The notes beneath the pieces are model-generated. The model did no database searches. It saw only the letters and a program-made list of their open reading frames with translations, and was not told where the DNA came from. Below, piece after piece: positions 30,657 through 33,542 of a DNA stretch of 64,000 nt; within the stretch, counting starts at the first letter, position 1, and every line of letters starts with the position of its first letter. The DNA is from Pseudomonadota bacterium (GTDB lineage Bacteria; Pseudomonadota; Gammaproteobacteria; Xanthomonadales; Xanthomonadaceae). The stretch spans positions 45,334 through 109,333 of the forward strand of contig JAFEBY010000126.1 in NCBI GenBank assembly GCA_018242465.1, in the 5' to 3' direction. The position numbers and the translations under genes are program-made.

Positions 30657-31023
30657 CGTTGGCCTCCGGCGGTTCACCGTCGCTCATGGTCTCGGGCAGT
30701 TCGGGCAGCACGTCAGCAGCAGGCGTCCCTGCCTCATGGCGCTGCGAGTACCACGACAGGAATTCGAGATCGTGCACCACCGCGGCGTCGCTGTCGTCTG
30801 GGGCCAGTTCGCCGCGCGCGGAGGACACCTGATCGTTCTCCGGCGGCAACGCCGTCTGCGGCAGTGCCTGGGTGGTGATATGCGGGCCATCATCGCCAGC
30901 CAGCGCCTGCGGCCAGTCGCCCACCCAAGTCGAGAGCAGGGCCGCCACGGTCAGCACGGCCACCCCGACCAGCCAGGACCAGCTGCGCCGGGACAATCCA
31001 AACACGCCTGGAGCAGGTGTCAC
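30646..31023 (-). CDS. Small single-pass membrane protein of unknown function
   Basis: From GTG at 31021-31023 the protein is 125 residues. A GTG at 31003-31005 is an alternative giving 119. It has one transmembrane helix (SWLVGVAVLTVAALLSTWV) followed by an acidic tail of about 90 residues (DLEFLSWYSQRHEAG, then VLPELPETMSDGEPPEAND). The layout and its neighbour resemble the anti-sigma-like partner of DUF3106 operons, but there is no adjacent sigma factor and no recognisable anti-sigma domain. It overlaps the DUF3106 gene by 11 bases. Confidence 0.65.
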   Translation of the reverse strand: MTPAPGVFGLSRRSWSWLVGVAVLTVAALLSTWVGDWPQALAGDDGPHITTQALPQTALPPENDQVSSARGELAPDDSDAAVVHDLEFLSWYSQRHEAGTPAADVLPELPETMSDGEPPEANDAQ

Positions 31024-31240
31024 GGGATCAGGCGATGAGATGCGGCATCCGCAGAATGATAGCGTGCAGCCCACTCCCGTCCTGTACCGCCAGTCATGCC
31101 CGGAGGGCTTGCATCGCAACCGGAACTGTGCATCCCGATGGAAGGTTGTACACAGGGTTCATGCGGTTGTCACGAAACCGGATACTTGGCCGTGATGACT
31201 CAGTGATTCCGCAGAATTCACTTGCAAGTTCCTGAATTAA

Positions 31241-31258
31241 AAAAGAATTGGTTCTTTT
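31241..31258. other. AT-rich perfect hairpin in the priA upstream gap
   Basis: aaaagaa and ttctttt pair around the 4-base loop ttgg, within a 344-base gap between the divergent membrane-protein gene and priA. The flanks are unusually AT-rich for this chromosome (cctgaattaaaa before, cactttttt after). It could be a promoter UP region, an unwinding-prone segment, or a minus-strand feature. Apart from this hairpin and the DnaA boxes, no gene was seen in the gap. Confidence 0.4.
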
Positions 31259-31335
31259 GGCACTTTTTTCACCATTCATCGGATTGTGACGAAAAACGCC
31301 CTGTTTCGCCCGCGATCGGAATTGCCTGCACAGAC

Positions 31336-31358
31336 TTATCCACATCCCGTGTGGATAA
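31336..31358. promoter_or_regulatory. Inverted pair of perfect DnaA boxes directly upstream of priA
   Basis: TTATCCACA (31336-31344) and TGTGGATAA (31350-31358) are both exact consensus DnaA boxes, facing each other across 5 bases and ending 9 bases before the priA ATG. A weaker box, TTGTACACA, lies at 31146-31154 with one mismatch to TTATNCACA. The pair overlaps the place where the priA promoter or ribosome-binding site should be, so DnaA binding would be expected to affect priA expression. The same bases can also fold into a 9-bp hairpin, so an operator for another protein remains possible. Confidence 0.65.
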
Positions 31359-31367
31359 ACTCAGACC

Positions 31368-33542
<2,175 letters not shown>

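Follow-up and report, generated by a model that had tools for sequence, protein, structure and literature searches.

Why should a perfect inverted pair of DnaA boxes stand directly in front of the gene for the replication restart helicase? In the 64-kb stretch of DNA analysed here (the window), the boxes TTATCCACA (31336–31344) and TGTGGATAA (31350–31358) are separated by 5 bp, and 9 bases intervene between the pair and the ATG at 31368 of priA (31368–33542, plus strand), whose product was identified as PriA by NF004067 (990.8 bits), TIGR00595 and the Pfam domains PriA_3primeBD and PriA_C. These coordinates bear out the initial annotation, which had described the pair and had also called its 9-mers rare: from the dinucleotide composition of this window (65.3% GC), the expected numbers are 0.07 for exact boxes and 1.9e-8 for exact pairs with a 5-bp spacer, whereas two exact boxes are present, those of the pair alone. 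The source genome (2.52 Mb, 87% complete) contains five exact copies of TTATCCACA, including the two of the priA pair. In the same genome (L001, G000:C4:22591), a TTATCCACA box with degenerate neighbours lies directly 5′ of dnaB, which encodes the replicative helicase (NF006443). Scans of positions 30700–31600 for sigma-70 promoters and terminators found none. Two readings had been offered for the pair, DnaA control of priA and a site that titrates or reactivates DnaA. On the evidence of sequence comparison, we consider that the pair is probably the core of a candidate DARS-type DnaA-reactivating element situated at priA, and not mainly an operator of that gene.

The pair is part of a larger arrangement. 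A third DnaA box, GCCTGCACA (31324–31332, plus strand), which goes beyond what had been annotated, lies 3 bp from the pair; with it the core reads box III-N3-box II-N5-inverted box I, followed by priA, where box II is TTATCCACA on the plus strand and box I is TGTGGATAA on the minus strand. Box III is weak in the window (5/9). Farther upstream, the weaker box TTGTACACA, which resembles box IV, was found where it had been reported (31146–31154, plus strand). The whole module is ~220 bp long: a DnaA box stands near −190 and an IHF consensus near −111, ahead of the three-box core. An AT-rich hairpin had also been proposed in the gap before priA; the inverted repeats there are short, with arms of 7 bp at most (e.g., AAAAGAA/TTCTTTT at 31241/31252), and what relatives keep at this place is the IHF consensus and a T-tract block.

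Is this arrangement maintained in related genomes? Conservation of both boxes and of their spacing had been set beforehand as a test, and the module passed it. In the genus, the exact pair with its 5-bp spacer was present in 15 of 17 genomes, with PriA adjoining at all 15 loci. In the family, an exact inverted pair (any spacer from 0 to 20 bp being allowed) was found in 227 of 247 genomes, the spacer being 5 bp in every site among the matches listed, and the reversed-pattern control was found in 0 of 247. Thirteen of the 20 remaining genomes carry a copy matching at 15–17 of 18 positions, that is, with one to three changes (G019, G070, G037, G081, L051, L052, L054–L057, L059, L060 and L079), and the other seven were unreadable: they lack a PriA match at 1e-30, are cut by a contig edge or have no upstream sequence among the regions retrieved. 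We aligned 60 of the 247 priA-upstream regions, hand-picked across 31 genera from genomes with listed priA coordinates and including four of the 20 genomes without an exact pair; the pair scored 18/18 in 55 of them and 17/18 in five. Each position of box II is identical in 58–60 of these 60 genomes, as is the last position of box I in 59 and every other position of box I in all 60, and the loop and most flanking positions are variable. The priA-distal 9-mer at the place of box III ends in CACA in 60/60 and in TNCACA in 56/60, whereas the priA-proximal 9-mer at 3 bp ends in CACA in 0/60. Because the CACA-ended box occurs on the distal side only, the element is directional relative to priA.

Conservation extends upstream of the core. 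First, a TTGTGCACA-type DnaA box lies ~190 bp before box II in the aligned upstream regions; the family alignment shows strong conservation of the block TTGTGCACA, relatives carry either TTGTGCACA or TTATGCACA where the window has TTGTACACA, and a TTATGCACA-type box is found at −187 to −192 in many members of the class. Second, of 75 sequences (two of which end short of this place), 65 match the IHF consensus YAANNNNTTGATW at −110 to −112 with ≤1 mismatch, and 32 match it without a mismatch, against shuffle means, for any match within 250 bp, of 8.5/75 and 0.4/75, respectively. The corresponding place in the window (31225–31237, minus strand; −111 from box II) is degenerate, with two mismatches. 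Because 20 of 21 family genomes, the source genome among them, have an IHF-alpha that scores above the cut-off, a role for IHF is at least possible. Third, a T-tract block of the form TGGC-N2-TTTTTT-N2-CCA lies near −78, and the alignments show it to be conserved about as well as the IHF site; its copy in the window is TGGCACTTTTTTCACCA (31258–31274, no strand assigned), and the block is kept in both the family and the genus alignments.

To look beyond the family, we built a model from sequence alone (R1) on 51 aligned modules. Its input was 56 sequences, of which L141, L156 and L105 were dropped for wrong automatic orientation, and the window (L016) and E. coli (L112) were deliberately omitted from training. 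R1 matched positions 31141–31359 of the plus strand of the window over model positions 12–230 of 232 (85.5 bits, E 1.1e-25; R1 E-values are rough owing to a shortened calibration); the window has no second match up to E 10, and the next-best match in the source genome scored 13.1 bits versus 85.5. In the class, 340 of 369 genomes, which supplied 19 of the training sequences, contain a match at E ≤1e-3; one to three per genome are common, and the best rows listed are nearly all full length. The surroundings of 80 named priA genes (541 kb) speak for the specificity of R1: of 59 matches there at E ≤0.01, 58 lie upstream of priA and the remaining one lies just past its 3′ end. A full-length module was observed just downstream of priA in L207 (4725–4934, minus strand, 67.7 bits). 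At E ≤1e-6, 37 of the 80 named loci have an upstream match (11 of the 37 are training sequences), including those in records labelled Lysobacter, Luteimonas, Thermomonas, Pseudoxanthomonas, Vulcaniibacterium, Rhodanobacter, Dyella, Luteibacter and Sedimenticola and, among the betaproteobacteria, Pseudogulbenkiania, Thiobacillus, Gulbenkiania and Pigmentiphaga. The other 43, including Marinobacter, Ectothiorhodospira and Tolumonas records, have no match at this threshold, and four of the 80 (L206, L220, L225 and L252) have <200 bp of upstream sequence. An R1 scan of 60 priA loci gave a match at E ≤1e-6 in 37; within those 60, 14 of the 30 loci from class genomes without an exact pair matched, one of them 1.25 kb upstream.

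What known element does the module resemble? According to the accessible parts of PMC5742627 and PMC8682772, E. coli DARS1 and DARS2 have equal box spacing, with box I opposed to boxes II and III. The DARS1 core is TAATACACA-TGG-TTATCCACA-GGAAT-AGTGGATAA, and that of DARS2 is TTCTTCACA-ACT-CTATCCACA-GAAAA-GGTGAATAA, in agreement with Table 1 of PMC11317965 as far as that article was accessible; the latter replaces a copy reading TTATCCCAG, which was rejected as the DARS2 core. The module shares this geometry of three boxes, with box I opposed to boxes II and III and spacings of 5 and 3 bp. When seven E. coli loci were scanned for III-N3-II-N5-I at a threshold of 20/27 box positions, DARS1 matched at 24/27 and DARS2 at 22/27, and the arrangement was not found at datA, oriC, polA, purH or priA. 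R1 scored 40.7 bits at DARS1 (model positions 71–230) and 25.1 bits at DARS2 (63–230), gave partial matches of 16.6–18.4 bits at datA, polA and purH, and found no match up to E 10 at oriC and priA; the scores indicate similarity to DARS1 and DARS2 beyond the boxes, much of each coming from the core itself.

The likeness to DARS2 is not confined to the core. On its box III side, DARS2 carries two IHF-type sites, one at −99, in the same orientation as that of the module, and one at −83; the IHF consensus of the module likewise keeps a set distance from the core on that side, the DARS2 site at −99 being 12 bp nearer. When the IHF sites of DARS2 were displaced by 5 or 10 bp, activity fell, less so with one 10-bp displacement, and DARS2 requires Fis (both from the accessible text of PMC4245941). 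The further DnaA box of DARS2, at −197, is oriented opposite to the distal box of the module, and DARS2 has a Fis consensus at −137, whereas the module has no conserved site for the Fis consensus GNNYANNNNNTRNNC corresponding to FBS2-3 of DARS2 (best offset, 6/75 sequences); the mean number of mismatches at −78 is 2.1, and a weak Fis site may be present there. DARS2 lies in the mutH region at 0.41 of the replichore, whereas the module lies at priA and at 0.07–0.30 of the replichore from dnaA in 20 complete genomes (median, 0.21), not at mutH in mid-replichore. DARS1, unlike the module, has no IHF consensus (≤1 mismatch) from −300 to +100, and it lies between bioD and uvrB, beside uvrB, at 0.66 of the replichore.

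How might such an element work? By extension from the published work on E. coli DARS, ADP-DnaA would bind boxes I–III, and the opposed boxes I and II would place two AAA+ domains head to head, as ADP-DnaA molecules are described to meet on the DARS boxes I and II (accessible parts of PMC5742627 and PMC8682772). ADP would then be released, and apo-DnaA would leave the DNA and reload with ATP; IHF bending at −111 would help the reactivation. The chromosomes of Xanthomonadaceae would have their main strong DARS, or the only one, at priA. DnaA occupancy may also affect priA transcription, an effect that would be unnecessary for explaining the conservation; by analogy with uvrB, which stands beside E. 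coli DARS1 and is listed among DnaA-repressed genes in the accessible portion of PMC11317965, regulation of priA may be a second function of the module. The core geometry, the IHF-type site placed as in DARS2, the conservation in the family, the scores of the blind model and the occurrence of the module away from priA count in favour of the DARS-type reading. Against it count the replichore position, which at 0.21 is closer to that of datA (0.20) than to those of DARS1 and DARS2, the lack of a conserved Fis consensus, the weak box III and twice-mismatched IHF place of the window, and the absence of the module from E. coli priA and, at E ≤1e-6, from 43 of the 80 named priA loci. The annotation had left titration and reactivation side by side; the reactivating form is the one that the DARS1/DARS2 geometry of the sequence favours.

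Could the module serve mainly as a DnaA/IHF operator of priA or of a divergent gene, coupling initiation to the restart helicase? DnaA regulates genes through paired boxes in E. coli (PMC11317965, accessible part), the orientation of the module relative to priA is fixed, with box III distal in 60/60, and conserved blocks stand between the core and a promoter-like element: 3′ of the core, many family members have ACTTGCG and CGCAA blocks and then a −10-like TAGACT near the priA ATG. TAGACT is placed just before the ATG (e.g., L113–L172), which points to a priA mRNA with little or no leader. We nevertheless regard this explanation as unlikely for three reasons, which also tell against the control of priA by DnaA that had been proposed for the pair. 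First, 48 of the 73 R1 matches listed for 52 class genomes with known priA lie away from priA and 25 lie upstream of it, and among the 75 exact pairs listed for 61 class genomes, 46 lie elsewhere, 26 adjoin priA and three come from genomes in which PriA had no match; a listed pair was among the grounds for choosing the genomes, and the fractions are not population estimates. Second, the window and G011 lack ~90 bp that G003 and G013 have between core and ATG, yet they retain the core; the distance from core to ATG is 9 bp in the window versus ~100 bp in G003 and G013, and the ACTTGCG, CGCAA and TAGACT blocks are absent from the window. Third, the distance between module and priA is variable, being 101–223 bp to the start of priA homology in 58 of the 60 family genomes and 343 and 383 bp in the other two; in G004 and G008 the core is likewise close to priA, with 47 bp to the homology start. 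Copy number also varies, with two or three tandem modules 5′ of priA in L010, L011 and L012 (G005, G006 and G007), L173, L181, L196, L203 and L059; those of the genus members L010–L012 are spaced 336–338 bp apart.

Away from priA, the module mostly keeps its parts and changes its neighbours. Among 16 such class loci, box III was found in 15 and the IHF consensus, at −99 to −111, in 11; at these 11 it lies either at −99/−100 or at −109 to −111, about one helical turn apart. The locus L040 has the palindrome without box III. Neighbouring genes, named solely where Pfam confirmed them, include those for RDD, RrnaAD, class II tRNA synthetase, alpha/beta hydrolase and L31. The gene on the other side of the module varies at priA loci as well (fructosamine kinase in L192, UPF0093 in L193); in L244, a sigma-factor gene with DUF3106 stands beside the module, and DUF3106 is also found nearby in the window. 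Because the module is kept in most genomes while its neighbours change, a chromosome-level task in DnaA control would explain the module better than the control of one gene. A reading of these sites as replication origins was tried and rejected, in that no rpmH, mnmG, dnaN or dnaA motif was found near 30 class loci; the patterns were crude and the evidence is weak, and the same regular expressions missed the L31 gene in L021 that Pfam later found.

Another explanation is a datA-like site, at which IHF between DnaA boxes would promote ATP hydrolysis by DnaA, or a cluster that merely titrates DnaA, as had also been proposed. Like the module, datA is an origin-proximal cluster of DnaA boxes with an IHF consensus (0.20 of the replichore, compared with the median of 0.21), and it shares the III-N3-II double box, in the form TTGTAAACA-GAG-TTATCCACA. 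The IHF consensus of the module lies between the distal box and the core, and that of datA also lies between DnaA boxes (PMC5742627, in its accessible part). However, datA has boxes around one IHF site and no opposed core pair: the inverted box I at 5 bp, which is among the most conserved parts of the module, is not found there. The datA IHF consensus lies at +65, on the side opposite to that of the module, and the R1 match is the partial one of 16.6 bits. We therefore consider a datA-like site improbable. The III-N3-II double box is likewise shared by E. coli polA and purH (Table 1 of PMC11317965, article accessible in part), which differ from the module in lacking the inverted box I and an IHF consensus at the corresponding place.

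Perfect 9-5-9 palindromes are also typical of dimeric repressors, and the module might accordingly be the operator of an unrelated dimeric regulator that resembles DnaA boxes by chance. We hold this to be very improbable, given the third box, which has the CACA end of DnaA boxes and stands at a constant 3 bp on a single side, the additional TTATGCACA-type box and IHF consensus, and the matches of the blind model R1 to DARS1 and DARS2. An RNA hairpin in the priA leader, which the position of the palindrome 9 bases from the start codon in the window and one symmetrical change noticed incidentally in L089 might suggest, is scarcely credible and is disfavoured. In many family members the −10-like element lies between the palindrome and the ATG, which would leave the palindrome outside the priA transcript; pairs are altered by changes on one side in G019, G037 and G128; and the same module occurs away from priA elsewhere.

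How does a DARS-type element at priA relate to what has been described? In the accessible parts of PMC4245941, PMC8682772 and PMC5742627, DARS-mediated reactivation of DnaA is known from E. coli, and the conservation of DARS2 is reported for E. coli-related gamma- or betaproteobacteria. The literature covered, which includes PMC12371093 and PMC4585315, was accessible in part and leaves most subscription journals outside, describes no DARS at priA or in Xanthomonadaceae; for this reason, we place the module as a further, probable DARS whose location at priA and taxonomic range are unexpected. Our results suggest that this type of switch occurs more widely than has been described, often beside the replication-restart gene. 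With a recognizable DARS-type module in most of the class genomes sampled, and commonly next to priA, this DnaA switch would become a general one, the list of modules would provide candidate sites for DARS tests outside E. coli, and the question would arise of why reactivation so often adjoins the gene for the restart helicase. We speculate, tentatively, that the priA promoter region is an ancient seat of a class-wide DARS: the module would have stood there before the sampled gamma- and betaproteobacteria diverged, would since have been relocated or copied to other sites (mutH and uvrB in E. coli) and would still have its sole strong copy there in Xanthomonadaceae. If so, a single locus would physically link the reactivation of DnaA with the expression of the restart helicase. 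In a sample of the phylum, R1 matches were observed in 119 of 150 genomes, many of them outside the class and many partial and weak, and DARS-type cores may reach other proteobacterial classes.
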